The notes under the pieces were generated by a model. That model did not search any database. It saw only the letters and a list, made by a program, of their open reading frames with translations, and was not told the DNA's origin. A stretch of 32,285 bases of DNA from a virus. Position numbers and translations under genes: made by a program. Every line of letters starts with the position of its first letter. Position 1 is the first letter of the stretch. The stretch is from the IMG/VR virus record IMGVR_UViG_3300043427_002445, positions 1 to 32,285 of that record; one strand, written 5' to 3'. Below are positions 7,446 through 32,285 of this stretch, one piece after another.

Positions 7446-7871
7446 ATGAATGCTAAGTTAGTAATAGTCAAAGGATGCCCTAAAATAGACGAAGATAGTC
7501 AACGTCTTATTGCCAAGTATGTAAAATATGCTGTTGAGCAACTTGGATTGGATGATACGCCTATTACTATCAGATTACTTGGACCAAATCCAAACGAACC
7601 TATTACTACTGGGGCATATAGTCCAAAAGATAAAACAGTAAGTAGTATAGCGGGCGGGCGACATCTTGTAGATTATTGTAGAACGATTGCTCACGAACTA
7701 ACTCATATGAAGCAGGACATCAATGGCGAACTAGATGAACCATATCCTGAAATCGGTGGGCCAATAGAAGATGAAGCAAATACTATGAGTGGCAGAATCA
7801 CCAAACATTTTGTAAAAAATATATTGACTCCAGAAGAAAAGCAGAAGTTGGGCCTTGGCAGTTATAGATGA
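7446..7871 (+). CDS. Small HExxH zinc metallopeptidase-like protein
   Basis: A 141-residue protein starting MNAKLVIVKGCPK. HELTHMKQ at 83-90 is a classical HExxH zinc site, and GGPIEDEANTMS about 20 residues later offers Glu108 or Glu110 as a third ligand, the arrangement of gluzincin-type minimal peptidases. The upstream frame extends to 7410, but the TATTTATT motif and conserved-looking protein favour 7446. No signal peptide. Similar short HExxH proteins occur in large phages; the substrate is unknown, with virion maturation or host-protein cleavage as options. Confidence 0.75.
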   Translation: MNAKLVIVKGCPKIDEDSQRLIAKYVKYAVEQLGLDDTPITIRLLGPNPNEPITTGAYSPKDKTVSSIAGGRHLVDYCRTIAHELTHMKQDINGELDEPYPEIGGPIEDEANTMSGRITKHFVKNILTPEEKQKLGLGSYR

Positions 7872-7960
7872 TAAAAAAACTAAAACACGCAATCCAAAAT
7901 GTTGCGGCGATGGTGTTCATAATATGGATAGTATTGGTTATGTTGGATATGTTCTTTTGA
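7868..7960 (+). CDS. 30-residue single-span membrane protein
   Basis: ATG overlaps the TGA of the metallopeptidase (ATGA). The peptide is MIKKLKHAIQN followed by VAAMVFIIWIVLVMLDMFF, one strong membrane helix after a basic N-terminus. Translational coupling with the peptidase is likely. Possible small membrane effector; function unknown. Confidence 0.5.
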   Translation: MIKKLKHAIQNVAAMVFIIWIVLVMLDMFF

Positions 7961-7991
7961 TATATAAAAAGACATATTACATGTTCTGGTT

Positions 7992-8001
7992 TATATTTAT
8001 A
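7992..8001 (+). promoter_or_regulatory. TATATTTATA motif, putative phage promoter
   Basis: Exact decamer 13 bases before the ATG at 8015, the same spacing as at 1993-2002. Confidence 0.5.
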
Positions 8002-8014
8002 TAAGACCATATAT

Positions 8015-8308
8015 ATGAATGAATCTTGGCCAATGCTAAATACATCTATGCTTAGACCAACTGGTAAAGCAAAGGACGAAGTATCTTTATCAGATATTAC
8101 AAATATGCTGAAGAATCGTTCATCTGAACCAGCCACTATGGAATATAATCCTGAAGATGTAAAGGAACTGGAAAAATTTTGTAATGAACACGGCATTCTT
8201 GGCGTGAATTTTGGCAAGATGAATCCAAGAGCAGCACTCAATATGCTGAAAGGAAAAATGGGAGTGCGTAATGAGCCAACAATCAAAAAAGGAATGCTTT
8301 ATGGATGA
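8015..8308 (+). CDS. Hypothetical protein
   Basis: A 97-residue ORF (MNESWPMLNTSMLRPTGKAK...). The middle has YNPEDVKELEKFCNEHGILGVNFG and the end RAALNMLKGKMG. It is mixed and soluble, with no recognised motif. Preceded by a TATATTTATA motif and overlapping the next gene by 8 bases, it begins a run of co-oriented genes that looks like a late, structural-type operon. Confidence 0.7.
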   Translation: MNESWPMLNTSMLRPTGKAKDEVSLSDITNMLKNRSSEPATMEYNPEDVKELEKFCNEHGILGVNFGKMNPRAALNMLKGKMGVRNEPTIKKGMLYG

Positions 8309-9311
8309 TACTGAAAACACAATAAAAGTTGGCGACTACGTTGAAATCAATACGCCGGATGATTTGGATTGGCACCAAAGAACAGGTAAGGTAGTACAGA
8401 TAAATGGTGAAAACTGCTTGGTGAAACTTGATGATACAAACGACGGCTTGATGGTACGAATACAAGACTTGAAACCGACCGAACCGGATATATCATTGAT
8501 AGAATATTACGTTGGTCAATCTGCTGGATATGGCGGCGGAGCAATGGCTGGAGGTGCTGTAGCACCAACAAACTGGGCAGGCACGTTCTCAAGCAATCAA
8601 ACATCACGCCGCCTAAAAGATTATCCAGCAAGCCGTAGATACACATATATGCAGGGCAATACCGTGATTGGTAGTTCATTATATGATACAATCACTCAAG
8701 ATGACCTGAAGGATGACAGATTTGATTCAGATGAAATAATGGCAGGACTACGTTGGGAAATGAAACATATGGAATATCCAAGCAAGGATGTTGCCCGCCC
8801 AATCGTAATCAAAAATCTACAAACCAATCCCAAGTATTATAGCGACTTGGATATGTATTTTAAATCAGACAAACAAGGAAAAATTATGGAAAACGTTGAC
8901 CCTAAAGAACTAGAAATGGGTATGGCAGTTGAAAAAGAACATACTCAAGATGAAGCACTAGCAAAGAAGATTGCCATGGATCATTTGGCAGAAGATCCAA
9001 AGTACTATAGCAAACTCAAGGCTGCTGGTCTTGAAGAATGTGGTGATATGGATACTCCTACGGTCGCTGTAGTAACTCTTGCTGCTCCGGTTGGACCAGA
9101 AGTAGATGCTCAAAAGCCTCTCAAGAGTTCTGGTCTTGGAGCCGGTGCTCCTGCTCCGTTGAAGTCAACACACCTAACTGCACCAGAAACAAAGGTAGTC
9201 AATGACAAGAACACGGTGGTATATGGGAAAACACCAACCATCACTGGTCCAGCAGATCCACTAAACCACTTCGCAAGTCAAATCCAAGCAGGTATTCACG
9301 AAAAATGGTAA
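8301..9311 (+). CDS. Possible virion-associated protein with SH3/KOW-like N-terminus and DUF5661-like repeats
   Basis: A 336-residue protein. AAGGA nine bases upstream supports the start at 8301 over 8271. Residues about 8-60 (VGDYVEINTPDDLDWHQRTGKVVQINGENCLVKLD) look like a KOW/SH3 barrel. A Gly/Ala-rich stretch follows (AGYGGGAMAGGAVAP). Two related segments come next: KHMEYPSKDVARPIVIKN with NPKYYSDL, and MAVEKEHTQDEALAKKIAMD with DPKYYSKL; the second resembles the DUF5661 family. The Pro/Ala-rich tail ends DPLNHFASQIQAGIHEKW, echoed at the start of the next gene. A virion or packaging-related role is inferred from composition and context only. Confidence 0.7.
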   Translation: MDDTENTIKVGDYVEINTPDDLDWHQRTGKVVQINGENCLVKLDDTNDGLMVRIQDLKPTEPDISLIEYYVGQSAGYGGGAMAGGAVAPTNWAGTFSSNQTSRRLKDYPASRRYTYMQGNTVIGSSLYDTITQDDLKDDRFDSDEIMAGLRWEMKHMEYPSKDVARPIVIKNLQTNPKYYSDLDMYFKSDKQGKIMENVDPKELEMGMAVEKEHTQDEALAKKIAMDHLAEDPKYYSKLKAAGLEECGDMDTPTVAVVTLAAPVGPEVDAQKPLKSSGLGAGAPAPLKSTHLTAPETKVVNDKNTVVYGKTPTITGPADPLNHFASQIQAGIHEKW

Positions 9312-16437: not shown

Positions 16438-17286
16438 GTGAATAACGGTCTCAACATTTCTGTTTTTAGCAAGGCACTATATAGCAACTGGTGTCACGAC
16501 AAAACTCGCAATCTTATGTTTGATTGCGGCGAGGGTGCTGCTACAAGCATTGGCAACTTTCTTGCTGGTATTGATAAGATTTTTATTACCCACGATCACG
16601 GAGACCATACTCTTGGTTTGCCAAGTATTATTGGTTGCCGAAATGCTGGCAGGGGTATGAGTCGCAATGTTGATACAATGGATAATAACAAGCCTCTTAC
16701 GGTATATTATCCAGAAGACAACTATTTGATGAATGACCTTATTCAGTTTTGCAAACTTCGTGCTGGCAACTGGTTGCGTTATGATCTGAAGTTTGTGCCT
16801 ATTTCATCTGGATTCGAACTTGACCTTGGTAACAAGCAGTTTTTGCGTGCGTTTGATATGAAGCATCAAAAGAACAAAAGCACACTTGGTTATGTCATTT
16901 ATGAAAATCGCACTCGCTTGAAGAAAGAGTTCCAAGGATTGGACATTCCTTCTTTTATTCGCAGAGGAGTTACTGGCGATAAACTCAACGAAACTTATCG
17001 TGCTAATCTATTTGCTTATTGTCTTGACGCTTATCAAATCAATGATGCTACTGATTTGATGGATGTGAAGGATATTATAATGGATTGTACTTTTCTTGAT
17101 GCTAAAGATAGAGATGATCCTACGCATTTTACTCTTGACGAAGCATATAATTTTTGTCAAGGTATTCGTGCTAAAAATATGATTGCTGCTCATTTGTCTG
17201 GTCGCTACAACTATAACAATCTTGTAGAGAATAACAAATACAGCGGCGTCAAGTTTATCAACCCGTACAAAGTAAATGACTTATGA
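16438..17286 (+). CDS. RNase Z-like metallo-beta-lactamase fold hydrolase
   Basis: A 282-residue metallohydrolase. THDHGDH (51-57) is the HxHxDH zinc motif; His143 (MKHQ), Asp216 (MDCTF) and His252 supply the other ligands. HLSGRY at 252-257 matches the HFSQRY-type motif of RNase Z, which trims the 3' end of tRNA precursors, so a tRNA- or RNA-processing role fits best. No ATG is available; the frame starts at GTG 16438. That codon lies in a potential hairpin GTTGAG (16429-16434) / CTCAAC (16450-16455). The exosite arm of cellular RNase Z is not obvious. Overlaps the next gene by 4 bases. Confidence 0.83.
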   Translation: MNNGLNISVFSKALYSNWCHDKTRNLMFDCGEGAATSIGNFLAGIDKIFITHDHGDHTLGLPSIIGCRNAGRGMSRNVDTMDNNKPLTVYYPEDNYLMNDLIQFCKLRAGNWLRYDLKFVPISSGFELDLGNKQFLRAFDMKHQKNKSTLGYVIYENRTRLKKEFQGLDIPSFIRRGVTGDKLNETYRANLFAYCLDAYQINDATDLMDVKDIIMDCTFLDAKDRDDPTHFTLDEAYNFCQGIRAKNMIAAHLSGRYNYNNLVENNKYSGVKFINPYKVNDL

Positions 17287-18734: not shown

Positions 18735-19550
18735 CTATCGCATCTGTAAAGTACAGATCGCTTCCATTCTTGCCTTCATTGCTTCTTTTTCCGTTTTATA
18801 CCATCCGATATGTTTTTCTTTTATTTTAGTTTCGGATTGTAATAAAGTCGCTTTCCAATATCCATTTTTCTTATTGAAGCACACCCCTTTCATAGAAGAT
18901 GTTTTTTCTTTTTTTCCCTTGCTTTTTAGAAAGTGGAACTTATCCCATTTTCTTTTCATCCCTATCGGGTTGCTGTCATATCCTTTATATATATAATCCG
19001 AAAACTTGATTATATCATCGTATTTGTAAAAAACAACACAAGAAGAATCGCCACATTTTCTTTGGTATGTTCTTATGATATGTTTTATATCAAGATTGTT
19101 TAGCACCTCAACAAGCAAACACCAATCTTGGTCAATAGTTCCCCAGAAAGCAACCTCCTTCTTGCGTCTATTTTTGGTTGGAACTTGGATATGACCATCG
19201 CCATCAAAAAATCCTCGCCAGAATAGATGATGTTTTTCTTTTGATATTTTTGACAATATTATTTGTGGGGAATCTTTTGATTTAGTATTGAATCCGTTTT
19301 CAGAAAGAAACTTTTTATTGAAATCCGAATAAGAGAAGTAAACTATTCCTTGAAGGCTTCCCCAAGGCTTACCATTTTTCATTCGTTGGTGTTTTTTGAC
19401 CGTGAACCCGTGAGATTCTATCCATTTTTCCATATATACCATATCCTCATATTTACAGGATATTGCATTTGTTTTTCCCCACCCATCTGCCCAGTACCAT
19501 CCGAGAAAGTATATAAAAGTATCATTGTTTAGGTTGACAAAGTTTATCAT
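18735..19550 (-). CDS. LAGLIDADG homing endonuclease with AP2-like C-terminus
   Basis: A 271-residue protein on the minus strand. FLGWYWADG (15-23) and FWRGFFDGDG (110-119) are the two LAGLIDADG helices with Asp22 and Asp118 as metal-binding acids. The C-terminal part, about 220-265 (KGVCFNKKNGYWKATL, HIGWYKTEKEAMKAR), resembles the AP2 DNA-binding domain. The combination fits a free-standing homing endonuclease; LAGLIDADG enzymes are uncommon in phages. It lies convergent to the HNH gene, 17 bases apart, with a TATTTATA motif upstream on its own strand. Confidence 0.88.
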   Translation of the reverse strand: MINFVNLNNDTFIYFLGWYWADGWGKTNAISCKYEDMVYMEKWIESHGFTVKKHQRMKNGKPWGSLQGIVYFSYSDFNKKFLSENGFNTKSKDSPQIILSKISKEKHHLFWRGFFDGDGHIQVPTKNRRKKEVAFWGTIDQDWCLLVEVLNNLDIKHIIRTYQRKCGDSSCVVFYKYDDIIKFSDYIYKGYDSNPIGMKRKWDKFHFLKSKGKKEKTSSMKGVCFNKKNGYWKATLLQSETKIKEKHIGWYKTEKEAMKARMEAICTLQMR

Positions 19551-27695: not shown

Positions 27696-28415
27696 ATGAA
27701 TAAATTACTAAAACTAATCGGCTATAAGCATAACTACGGCGGCAGAGGTCGCTCATATAAATTTTCGTGGGGCGAAATTGCTCCATTGAATAAAGACATC
27801 TCGTTTAGATGGAGTGGTCCTTATTATTGTTATGAGCCTAAACTAATTATCGGTCTATATTTTATATCATTTTATATTCGCACTCCATCGTTTGGAGTAA
27901 AGGCCGCACAAAGTTCCAAAGAAGAACGCAACTATGGCTTTTATCTTTATCCTAATCTAAACAACTGGGAAGCAACGGTGTTTCAGTTTTATAATAAATC
28001 ACTGCACATTGAAATGCCTTGGACATATAAATGGAAGCGTACTGAACTGCTTGATTGGGATATGAAGACAGTATGTAAAGAAGAATCTGGCGAAAGAGAT
28101 TGGCACAAATGGTATAATGAAAAAGAGGCTTGGGTAAAAGACAATGCCAAGACATATGATTATACATATGTTCTAAAGAATGGCACGGTACAAAACCGTA
28201 AAGCAACTTGTCATATTGAACGCAGAACTTGGAGTGTAAGATGGGCTCCTTGGGTCAAGATGGTTAGCACTACATTGGATGTAAAGTTTGATGATGAAGT
28301 AGGAGAGAGAAGCGGTTCTTGGAAAGGTGGAACTATTGGCTGCTCATATGAAATGCTGCATAATGAAACACCCGAACAAACACTTCGCAGAATGGAAAGT
28401 GAAAGGAAATTCTAA
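27696..28415 (+). CDS. Conserved-type phage protein of unknown function
   Basis: A 239-residue ORF. Aromatic-rich strands at the start (ISFRWSGPYYCYEPKLIIGL) are followed by KRTELLDWDMKTVCKEESGE and a C-terminus with CHIERRTWSVRWAPWVKM, FDDEVGERSGSWKGGTIGCS and ETPEQTLRRMESERKF. I recall similar sequences from other phages without a function. No membrane segment or catalytic motif. Its TAA overlaps the next ATG by one base. Confidence 0.75.
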   Translation: MNKLLKLIGYKHNYGGRGRSYKFSWGEIAPLNKDISFRWSGPYYCYEPKLIIGLYFISFYIRTPSFGVKAAQSSKEERNYGFYLYPNLNNWEATVFQFYNKSLHIEMPWTYKWKRTELLDWDMKTVCKEESGERDWHKWYNEKEAWVKDNAKTYDYTYVLKNGTVQNRKATCHIERRTWSVRWAPWVKMVSTTLDVKFDDEVGERSGSWKGGTIGCSYEMLHNETPEQTLRRMESERKF

Positions 28416-30104: not shown

Positions 30105-30194
30105 ATGACATCTGAACAAAAGTTCCAAATCATAAAGAAAGTGCTTGCGTCTGTGGCTATATTGGTTATTATTATTGCTCTAATCAAGTTATGA
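30105..30194 (+). CDS. 29-residue single-span membrane protein
   Basis: ORF MTSEQKFQIIKKVLAS followed by VAILVIIIALIKL, a membrane helix. Its TGA overlaps the ATG of the phosphoesterase gene. It resembles the microprotein at 7868-7960 in layout, not sequence. Function unknown. Confidence 0.5.
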   Translation: MTSEQKFQIIKKVLASVAILVIIIALIKL

Positions 30195-30880
30195 CACGTA
30201 TTGTATCCATCTCTGACACCCACGGAAGCCATTTTGGTATAAAAATACCAGACGGCGATGTGTTGGTGCATTGTGGAGATTTTTGCTCTGATGGCAATGT
30301 GCGTGATGCTATGATTTTTATGAGATGGTTCAATACGCATCCTCATAAGCACAAGATTTTTATCGCAGGCAATCACGATTGGATTTGTGAAAAAGATCCG
30401 TCGTTGTTTAGAGGATTGCTGACAGAGTTTCCAGATTTGACTTATCTAGAAGACAATGCTTGTAAAGTTGAAGGACTGAAGTTCTGGGGCTCTCCAGTCC
30501 AGCCCTTTTTTTATAACTGGGCGTTCAATCGTCATAGAGGCGAAGAAATCAAGCATCATTGGGATATTATACCAGATGATACTGATGTATTGATTACGCA
30601 CGGTCCTCCGTATGGCATTTGTGATAGAGCATATCGTGTTGGATTTGATACTACAGAAAATACAGGCTGTAAAGATTTGCTTGATGCTACATTGCGTATT
30701 TCCCCTAAACTACATTTGTTTGGGCATATTCACTACGACGGTCAAACTCAATATATTGGTCCAAAGACAACATATGCTAATGTATCTATGCTAAACGAGG
30801 CATATCTTGTTTGGGGCAAGCCTACTATTTTTGATATTGACAAAGATGGAATTGTAAGCATAATGTCGGAAAATGAATAA
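30191..30880 (+). CDS. Metallophosphoesterase, MPPED/UPF0046-like
   Basis: A 229-residue calcineurin-fold phosphoesterase. SDTHG (8-12), GDFC (29-32), GNHD (60-63), LITHGPPYG and LFGHIH are the metal-binding motifs. Asp9, His11, Asp30, Asn61 and the later histidines are all present. The THGPP and GHIH patterns resemble the MPPED/UPF0046 group, acting on small phosphodiesters. It differs from the phosphoesterase at 19607 in sequence and length. Overlaps the microprotein by 4 bases and the next gene by 8. Confidence 0.9.
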   Translation: MTRIVSISDTHGSHFGIKIPDGDVLVHCGDFCSDGNVRDAMIFMRWFNTHPHKHKIFIAGNHDWICEKDPSLFRGLLTEFPDLTYLEDNACKVEGLKFWGSPVQPFFYNWAFNRHRGEEIKHHWDIIPDDTDVLITHGPPYGICDRAYRVGFDTTENTGCKDLLDATLRISPKLHLFGHIHYDGQTQYIGPKTTYANVSMLNEAYLVWGKPTIFDIDKDGIVSIMSENE

Positions 30881-31103
30881 TATACTACTTGAAGGATTGT
30901 TTATATTCGGATGCTTATGGTCGCTCATTGGAGCAATCACGTATCCTATTTACTTTGGCAAGGTTGTATTACAGCCGCAAAAGATTACATTCTTTTTGAT
31001 GTGCGGACCATTGATTTGGTTCACGCTACCAATGGTATATGTAGTAAATAAAACAATAGATAATATTTTTGAGCCATTTTATATTTGGCTAACCAAGAGA
31101 TAA
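30873..31103 (+). CDS. Small two-span membrane protein
   Basis: A 76-residue ORF. Two hydrophobic segments (GLFIFGCLWSLIGAITYPIY and FFLMCGPLIWFTLPMVYVV) are joined by a short basic loop. It overlaps the phosphoesterase by 8 bases and precedes the heme oxygenase by 8. Function unknown. Confidence 0.68.
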   Translation: MNNILLEGLFIFGCLWSLIGAITYPIYFGKVVLQPQKITFFLMCGPLIWFTLPMVYVVNKTIDNIFEPFYIWLTKR

Positions 31104-31111
31104 AATAACTT

Positions 31112-31666
31112 ATGAGCACACTAAGAGAACTTACAGCAGAAAGTCATACTAAAGCAGAGAATACAGTATTTATGCGTTTGCTTATGGCAAAGGCACTTAC
31201 TCCATATGAATATATGGATTATCTGACTCAGTTTACGTTGGTATATGATGGGCTTGAATATGCTGCCAATAAGTTTGGCATACTACAAGAGTTTGATGGC
31301 ATTCAGCGTTCAGATAAAATCAAGGCAGACCTTGAAGAAGCAAATACTGTGAATGGTAAGAGATGCCTTATTCGCCTATGTACTACACTATATTACAACT
31401 ATCTTATCAATCTTGATGAAAAGGAAAAGGTTGCTGCTCATTTTTATGTAAGATTTGCTGGTGATATGTTTGGCGGTCAAATGCTAAAGAGCCTCGTGCC
31501 AAGCACAGGCAGAATGTATGATTTTGAGCATAATCTGCCTGCACTGCGTATGAAGATGCGTGAGTTTGCTAAACCCAACTTGGCAGAAGAAGCAAACAAG
31601 GCATTTGGCTATACCATTGACATTGTTGATGAAATATGCGGAGTCAAACGTGATCTTTGGTTATAA
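31112..31666 (+). CDS. ho1: Heme oxygenase
   Basis: A 184-residue enzyme that opens heme to biliverdin, carbon monoxide and iron, using reductant such as ferredoxin. LRELTAESHTKAEN gives the proximal heme ligand His12 in the family pattern TxxxHxxAE. FYVRFAGDMFGGQ (111-123) is the distal helix with the conserved GDxxGGQ. It is shorter than cyanobacterial heme oxygenase (about 240 residues). Its TAA shares one base with the ATG of the bilin reductase, so the two are translated together and biliverdin can pass directly to the next enzyme. Confidence 0.93.
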   Translation: MSTLRELTAESHTKAENTVFMRLLMAKALTPYEYMDYLTQFTLVYDGLEYAANKFGILQEFDGIQRSDKIKADLEEANTVNGKRCLIRLCTTLYYNYLINLDEKEKVAAHFYVRFAGDMFGGQMLKSLVPSTGRMYDFEHNLPALRMKMREFAKPNLAEEANKAFGYTIDIVDEICGVKRDLWL

Positions 31667-32285
31667 TGAGTGTTATATTTGACAAGATGCGAACCTTGAG
31701 CAGCGACTTGTATTTGTTGCTGGCCAAGGATAGTATTGAGATAGAACTACAAGAACTATCCAAGTATGCTTGGACAAATAGAATATTTCGCAATCTAAGA
31801 TTTCGCCGTGGTCATATTGAAGTGTTGGATGTGTCATCGTCAAAAAAGATGTGGATTATGCATATCTGCATCTTTCCACATCTTGATGATGGTTCTCCTA
31901 TCTTTGGATTTGATGTAATATGCGGAGCCAATAAAATCACAGGTGTATTTCTTGACTTTAGTATGGCTGACGAAAATCATCCTATGAATATATGGTTCAA
32001 GGAAAAGACCAAAGACCTTGTATGGAAAAAGGATAGAGAACTGCCAGATTGGGGCAAACGCATCTTTAGTCCAAATATGATTGCAGCGGGTATGGTAAAT
32101 ACAGACGAAGAACTAAATCAAGTCATTGATGTAGCAAAGGATTGTATGAAGTTTTATATTGAAAATGTTGGCGGGACGATTGGAAATGTCAATAATGCTC
32201 CTGCTCACAATCACTATTGCGTCAATCAAAAAAACAATATACATACATCACGCTTTCTTATAAACTGCGGTCATAAGGAAGAAGA
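31666..32285 (+). CDS. Ferredoxin-dependent bilin reductase (PcyA/PcyX-like), 3' end cut
   Basis: At least 206 residues; the gene runs off the right edge. It reduces biliverdin using ferredoxin. MHICIFPHLDDGSPIFGFD contains His66 and Asp83, 17 residues apart, matching the His88/Asp105 pair of Synechocystis PcyA; Glu52 is a possible counterpart of Glu76, two residues off. Overlap with the heme oxygenase by one base (TAATG) makes an operon. Among phage enzymes the candidates are PebS and PcyX (both giving phycoerythrobilin) and PcyA (phycocyanobilin); the His/Asp pair and gene pairing favour PcyX or PcyA. The product cannot be set from the partial sequence. Confidence 0.9.
   Translation, partial: MSVIFDKMRTLSSDLYLLLAKDSIEIELQELSKYAWTNRIFRNLRFRRGHIEVLDVSSSKKMWIMHICIFPHLDDGSPIFGFDVICGANKITGVFLDFSMADENHPMNIWFKEKTKDLVWKKDRELPDWGKRIFSPNMIAAGMVNTDEELNQVIDVAKDCMKFYIENVGGTIGNVNNAPAHNHYCVNQKNNIHTSRFLINCGHKEE

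Follow-up and report, generated by a model that had tools for sequence, protein, structure and literature searches.

The stretch of DNA analyzed here (the window, 32,285 nucleotides of a virus record from IMG/VR) ends in two adjacent genes that encode a heme oxygenase (HO) and a ferredoxin-dependent bilin reductase (FDBR). Their positions are listed in Table 1, together with those of the two preceding genes and of the codons for three active site residues in the FDBR.

Table 1. Genes and sequence features at the HO-FDBR locus of the window.
Feature	Position	Strand	Basis and remarks
Calcineurin-like phosphoesterase	30191..30880	+	PF00149, E 5e-9; synteny, kept in G001-G004
Small membrane-type protein	30873..31103	+	Gene order; directly upstream of HO
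Heme oxygenase (HO)	31112..31666	+	184 aa; start ATG 31112, stop TAA 31664-31666; PF01126 Heme_oxygenase, E 7e-16
TAATG, HO stop and FDBR start with one common base	31664..31668	+	Sequence; close spacing kept in kin
Ferredoxin-dependent bilin reductase (FDBR), 5' part	31666..32285	+	Start ATG 31666-31668; PF05996, E 1.6e-13; PDB 5owg, E 1.7e-43
Codon GAA, Glu52 (PcyA Glu76; Asp in PcyX)	31819..31821	+	Alignments
Codon CAT, His66 (PcyA His88)	31861..31863	+	Alignments
Codon GAT, Asp83 (PcyA Asp105)	31912..31914	+	Alignments

The HO protein is of normal length, as phage HOs of similar kind in the alignment span 174-201 aa, and it carries the residues expected of a heme oxygenase: the proximal ligand His12 and an intact distal Gly117-Asp118-x-x-Gly121-Gly122 motif. 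Its AlphaFold model has a pLDDT of 93.2, and the top PDB matches to the model are heme oxygenases. Among the other aligned HOs, only those of L010-L014 lack the distal Gly-Asp pair (Gly117 is replaced by Ala, and Asp118 by Leu or Ile); these proteins may differ in activity from the remaining HOs, all of which keep it.

The FDBR reading frame is open at the end of the window, where 206 codons are readable, and its missing 3' end was supplied by a contig from nearly the same phage (L002, FDBR 99% identical), giving a full-length protein of 225 aa. The protein matches Fe_bilin_red (PF05996) above the Pfam cut-off, shows the alpha/beta/alpha FDBR fold, with FDBRs as its PDB matches, and contains the central aspartate of the family, Asp83. 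Its closest solved relative is the phage PcyX enzyme (PDB 5owg), followed by PcyA (E 2.6e-12), and the AlphaFold model of the complete L002 version (pLDDT 93.6) likewise matches solved FDBRs, with 5owg PcyX at the top. Alignment to Synechocystis PcyA and to PcyX reveals a complete PcyA triad, in which Glu52, His66 and Asp83 correspond to Glu76, His88 and Asp105, the catalytic residues that define an AX-type PcyA. The original prediction had described a His/Asp pair at the PcyA spacing; the two residues are indeed 17 positions apart, exactly as in the Synechocystis enzyme, and the third residue of the triad accompanies them.

The shared base between the HO stop and the FDBR start, also read correctly in the original prediction, leads us to infer that translation of the two genes is coupled. 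The overlap is exact in the window and in L002, and in L003-L005 the HO stop ends 1 base ahead of the ATG. An HO gene is present in 13 of 13 first-round relatives among the IMG/VR viral records, and the two genes lie -68 to +22 nt apart in 85 of the 92 loci whose start codons were picked by script, so their pairing is not a product of chance. FDBR relatives were encoded by at least 550 stretches in each of two IMG/VR scans, and the gene as such is therefore common and widespread. Collectively, the Pfam and solved-structure matches and the constant presence of HO bear out the claim of an HO-FDBR pair in a phage, and the pair is real and well conserved; it very probably constitutes a working heme-to-bilin module.

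The small membrane-type protein encoded directly upstream of HO gave no match in a Pfam search; small proteins occupy the matching position in G001, G002 and G004, and the gene is possibly part of the same transcript as HO. The phosphoesterase that precedes it is not thought to belong to the bilin pathway. Elsewhere, the window encodes a protein (27696-28415, + strand) that matches the Pfam family Acb3, 'CBASS inhibitor Acb3' (E 7.6e-43), and is likely an anti-CBASS factor. It also encodes a protein with a metallo-beta-lactamase fold (16438-17286, + strand; kept in G002 and G004) that shows a weak, below-cut-off match to anti-Pycsar Apyc1, as well as two homing-endonuclease-like ORFs with NUMOD3 and LAGLIDADG matches (178-1068, + strand; 18735-19550, - strand).

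Genes that could supply or use the pathway were sought in related records. No match to 5-ALA synthase (TIGR01821) was found in eight of them (G001-G007 and G009, possibly incomplete), and a three-gene valaS-hemO-pcyA/X cassette was rejected on this basis. A plant-type ferredoxin was not found in the kin records searched, nor a flavodoxin in the window lineage (records possibly incomplete in both cases); a phage-encoded electron donor of either type was consequently rejected, and the electrons would presumably come from host ferredoxin. An FMN_red-type flavoprotein (PF03358, E 1e-5) is encoded in G002 (62738-63523), G001 (7851-8636) and G004 (182202-182984), and in G001 and G002 its gene lies ~4 kb downstream of the FDBR gene and faces it. 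We regard this protein as a possible redox partner of the FDBR, and do not claim it as the donor. Photosystem II reaction-centre genes (psbA) gave no match above cut-off in the kin records searched (possibly incomplete). A phytochrome PHY domain, a CpeT lyase or a phycobilisome protein was likewise not found in the window lineage (records possibly incomplete), and a photoreceptor or phycobiliprotein partner was rejected. In one of the 11 records searched, G009, a CpeT/CpcT-family gene does occur in the absence of phycobilisome genes (PF06206, E 1e-31; L054 12556-13158). This record also carries L010, which has a Glu-type FDBR, and the CpeT/CpcT-family gene directly follows that of an outer-membrane beta-barrel protein (L054 9177-12467) with CarboxypepD_reg domains, of a kind typical of Bacteroidota.

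The absence of a detected bilin-binding partner from the window lineage and the constant pairing of HO with the FDBR are consistent with heme salvage, in which the phage gains iron from heme through HO, while the FDBR merely disposes of biliverdin and the identity of the bilin is irrelevant. Such phages have been discussed in terms of iron supply (PMC11480375), and we consider this explanation quite possible, if not probable. However, a four-electron reduction is a costly means of removing biliverdin, and the triad is kept across a large divergence, which suggests that selection acts on the reduction itself.

To which type of FDBR the enzyme belongs was determined from alignments and trees that included PcyA, PcyX and PebS. 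The position of PcyA Glu76 is occupied by Asp in 136, Glu in 37, Gln in 4 and Ser in 1 of 178 aligned rows, a tally that includes near-duplicates; the natural Gln variants include L006 and L195, and the Ser variant is L202. The Asp-type FDBRs form one tree group (support 94/99 and 99/96 in the fuller trees, 75/53 in a thinned set). The window FDBR falls outside it, within a nine-member clade of Glu and Gln types (98/93). Further Glu-type enzymes also lie outside the Asp clade, in an L081-type clade (11 rows, 100/100) and a distant group formed by L010-L013. In the trees, PcyX is a closer neighbor of the window clade than cyanobacterial PcyA is. Nevertheless, AU tests argue against joining it to the characterized PcyX (5owg) subclade (p 0.002), as they do against joining it to cyanobacterial and cyanophage PcyA (p 0.015). 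Simple membership in PcyX was rejected, because the enzyme has Glu52 where PcyX has Asp55 and lies outside the 99/96 Asp clade that holds 5owg and the Mosig FDBR. The trees and the AU test likewise excluded identity with the cyanophage PcyAs; these share the Glu76/His88/Asp105 triad with the cyanobacterial enzyme (2d1e), but are only 22-23% identical to the window FDBR, and HO coupling was not found in the examples fetched (S-SSM4 and P-RSM4), unlike in the window. PebS of cyanophage P-SSM2 is also a phage-borne FDBR of the same fold, yet it was rejected because it has Val/Asn/Asp at the triad positions and is remote in the tree.

Judged by its sequence, the window FDBR thus belongs to the PcyA/PcyX (AX) lineage, outside PcyX. 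The tree and alignment keep it within the FDBR family, with its His/Asp pair, and outside PebS, as had been proposed; its designation as a PcyA-type enzyme needs to be qualified, since its nearest relatives are PcyX-like, yet it lies outside PcyX and retains the PcyA glutamate. Phage PcyX is thought to have descended from bacterial PcyA. A genome scan for bacterial AX-clade PcyA with which to root the tree yielded only two contigs from bacterial MAGs, both with PcyX-type FDBRs (L072, 335 kb, Neomarinimicrobiota; L073, Rickettsiales), and these are possibly phage contigs binned with bacteria. An alphaproteobacterial sample contained distant FDBR relatives, which were left out of the trees. Glutamate is likely the ancestral state at the Glu76 position; we do not word this more strongly because support for the Asp group is weaker in the thinned tree.

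This placement outside PcyX, together with the PcyA glutamate, changes the predicted product. Glu76 of PcyA is regarded as donating the first proton, and the initial reduction by this enzyme targets the D-ring vinyl group and yields 18EtBV (PMC9800206). The glutamate is reportedly missing in both PcyX and pre-PcyA (PMC10151467), and the change from Glu to Asp has previously been named as the likely cause of PcyX making phycoerythrobilin (PEB) and not phycocyanobilin (PCB). PcyX produces PEB, and Asp55 has been named as PcyX-specific; the FDBR of phage CB_2, which lacks this aspartate and whose partner HO is active, produces PCB (PMC11480375). Because the window FDBR keeps the Glu76/His88/Asp105 triad and lacks the PcyX aspartate, as does the PCB-forming CB_2 enzyme, its product is most likely PCB. 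It is conceivable that, despite its glutamate, the enzyme acts like phage PcyX and yields PEB via 15,16-dihydrobiliverdin, as PcyX is its best solved relative and top fold match and also stands closer to its clade than cyanobacterial PcyA does. Moreover, the structure and function of FDBRs, including product specificity, are not reliably predictable from sequence, and residue rules are weak (PMC13193486). We nonetheless consider a PEB product rather unlikely, given the glutamate at the position of Asp55, the location of the clade outside the Asp group and the product of the CB_2 enzyme.

The pair is carried by a large phage. Homologues of 31 window proteins are present, in largely the same order, in each of two longer records (L003/G002, 184,824 bp; L005/G004, 297,258 bp), which are T4-like: they have terminase, portal, capsid and sheath genes in common with cultured T4-like phages. 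No named phage matched L003 closely at the DNA level. G004 encodes 36 tRNAs and a tmRNA; the tmRNA, which also occurs in G002, has an unusually long predicted tag (AKRNLAKVSFLSVRKN...; L021 7795-8185 in G004, L031 8603-8996 in G002). G004 also encodes a UV endonuclease UvdE (L021 9044-10054, E 8e-40) and a cyclic-nucleotide-binding protein (L020 17097-17750, E 1e-16), both kept in G002. The terminase (TerL) is 52% identical to that of phage Mel-JY01, 51% to that of Flavobacterium phage immuto and about 30-32% to those of marine cyanophages, and gene sharing is as close to Mel-JY01 as to immuto. The nearest ThyX proteins among cultured phages are those of Nodularia and Pseudanabaena phages.

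Genes of the window lineage show no excess of Shine-Dalgarno (SD) sequences and are depleted of G at -7 to -12 upstream of their starts. Relative to the upstream background, the G ratio at these positions is 0.69 in G002, 0.73 in G003, 0.74 in G004 and 0.42-0.54 in G005, G017 and G009; the window alone (0.94, n=39) shows no clear depletion and is too short to decide. Similar depletion is seen in Flavobacterium phage immuto (0.48) and Cellulophaga phage phi10:1 (0.51), in contrast to six phages of cyanobacteria including Mel-JY01 (0.97-1.68), pelagiphage Mosig (2.37) and a PcyX phage (2.03). SD sequences are usually missing in Bacteroidetes, whose freshwater members are known to have large phages (PMC9723584). 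Across 120 loci with enough genes, the median ratio is 0.91 for phages with Glu/Gln-type FDBRs versus 1.56 for those with Asp-type enzymes (Mann-Whitney p 2e-10), a descriptive comparison given the non-independence of related loci. Intermediate ratios are seen in the L081-type Glu clade, whose longest record, G016, uses SD signals (1.69), so the glutamate does not always go together with an SD-less host. Ribosomal protein S21, sought as a host marker, is absent from the window-lineage records and present in G009.

Given the missing SD signals and a G depletion like that of Flavobacterium and Cellulophaga phages, the best guess for the host is a Bacteroidota-like, likely Flavobacterium-like, bacterium, in agreement with the non-cyanobacterial host that the original prediction had entertained. 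The kinship with Mel-JY01 and the ThyX affinities speak against this assignment. Mel-JY01 (PP395634) has Microcystis elabens as its recorded host; its TerL groups with Flavobacterium phages (through G004), its annotation lists no photosynthesis gene, and the host record may be worth checking. That the lineage instead infects freshwater cyanobacteria, where PCB would suit and feed the phycocyanin of the infected cell, would fit the Microcystis record of Mel-JY01 and the ThyX relatives but is unlikely, as photosystem II reaction-centre and CpeT matches are absent from the 72-297 kb relatives, G ratios in the lineage are below those of the six cyanophages compared, Mel-JY01 included, and the FDBR stands apart from cyanophage PcyA.

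On balance, we favor with modest confidence a two-enzyme pathway in a large T4-like phage with a Bacteroidota-like host that lacks phycobilisomes. During infection, the phage would express this compact pathway from a single coupled message. HO would convert heme to biliverdin IXalpha, iron and CO, and the FDBR would then reduce biliverdin with four electrons from host ferredoxin, acting first on the D-ring vinyl group and second on the A-ring to yield PCB. The bilin would not serve phycobilisome light harvesting. The phage may instead benefit from heme and iron turnover with removal of biliverdin, or from a bilin that acts as an antioxidant or as a chromophore for host proteins. A more specific and quite improbable version is that large phages of non-photosynthetic Bacteroidota load PCB into host bilin-binding proteins, such as bacteriophytochromes, and thereby alter light sensing or redox state; if true, this would be a pigment AMG aimed at signalling and not at photosynthesis.

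A bilin pathway in a phage of non-cyanobacteria is not the new puzzle that it had been taken for, as HO-FDBR cassettes in such phages are already known from Mosig and CB_2, and both a phytochrome chromophore and iron supply have been discussed for CB_2 (PMC11480375). Pelagibacter phage Mosig (EXVC030M, MT647606) is T4-like, has a non-cyanobacterial host and carries overlapping HO and FDBR genes, and its FDBR, like PcyX_EBK42635 (5owg), has the same fold and His/Asp pair as the window enzyme. The window FDBR differs in its glutamate and its separate clade, is 38% identical to the Mosig protein, and occurs in a lineage without SD signals, whereas PcyX phages use them. The freshwater phage CB_2, compared here by description, resembles the window in its HO (vHemO), in an FDBR without the PcyX aspartate (vPcyA) and in a predicted non-cyanobacterial host (PMC11480375). 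However, the host predicted for it is an alphaproteobacterial methanotroph, Methylocystis, and CB_2 carries alaS, which was not found in the eight kin records of the window (possibly incomplete).

What is new is the separate FDBR lineage, its Glu-type active site and the host signature. The aspartate marks a single phage clade, and a lineage outside that clade keeps the glutamate, which provides natural pairs of enzymes for testing how this residue relates to the product. The phages that carry the glutamate lineage, moreover, differ in their translation signature. These findings place bilin synthesis in phages whose probable host group lacks phycobilisomes, and the role of a phage bilin outside cyanobacteria becomes testable in culturable systems.
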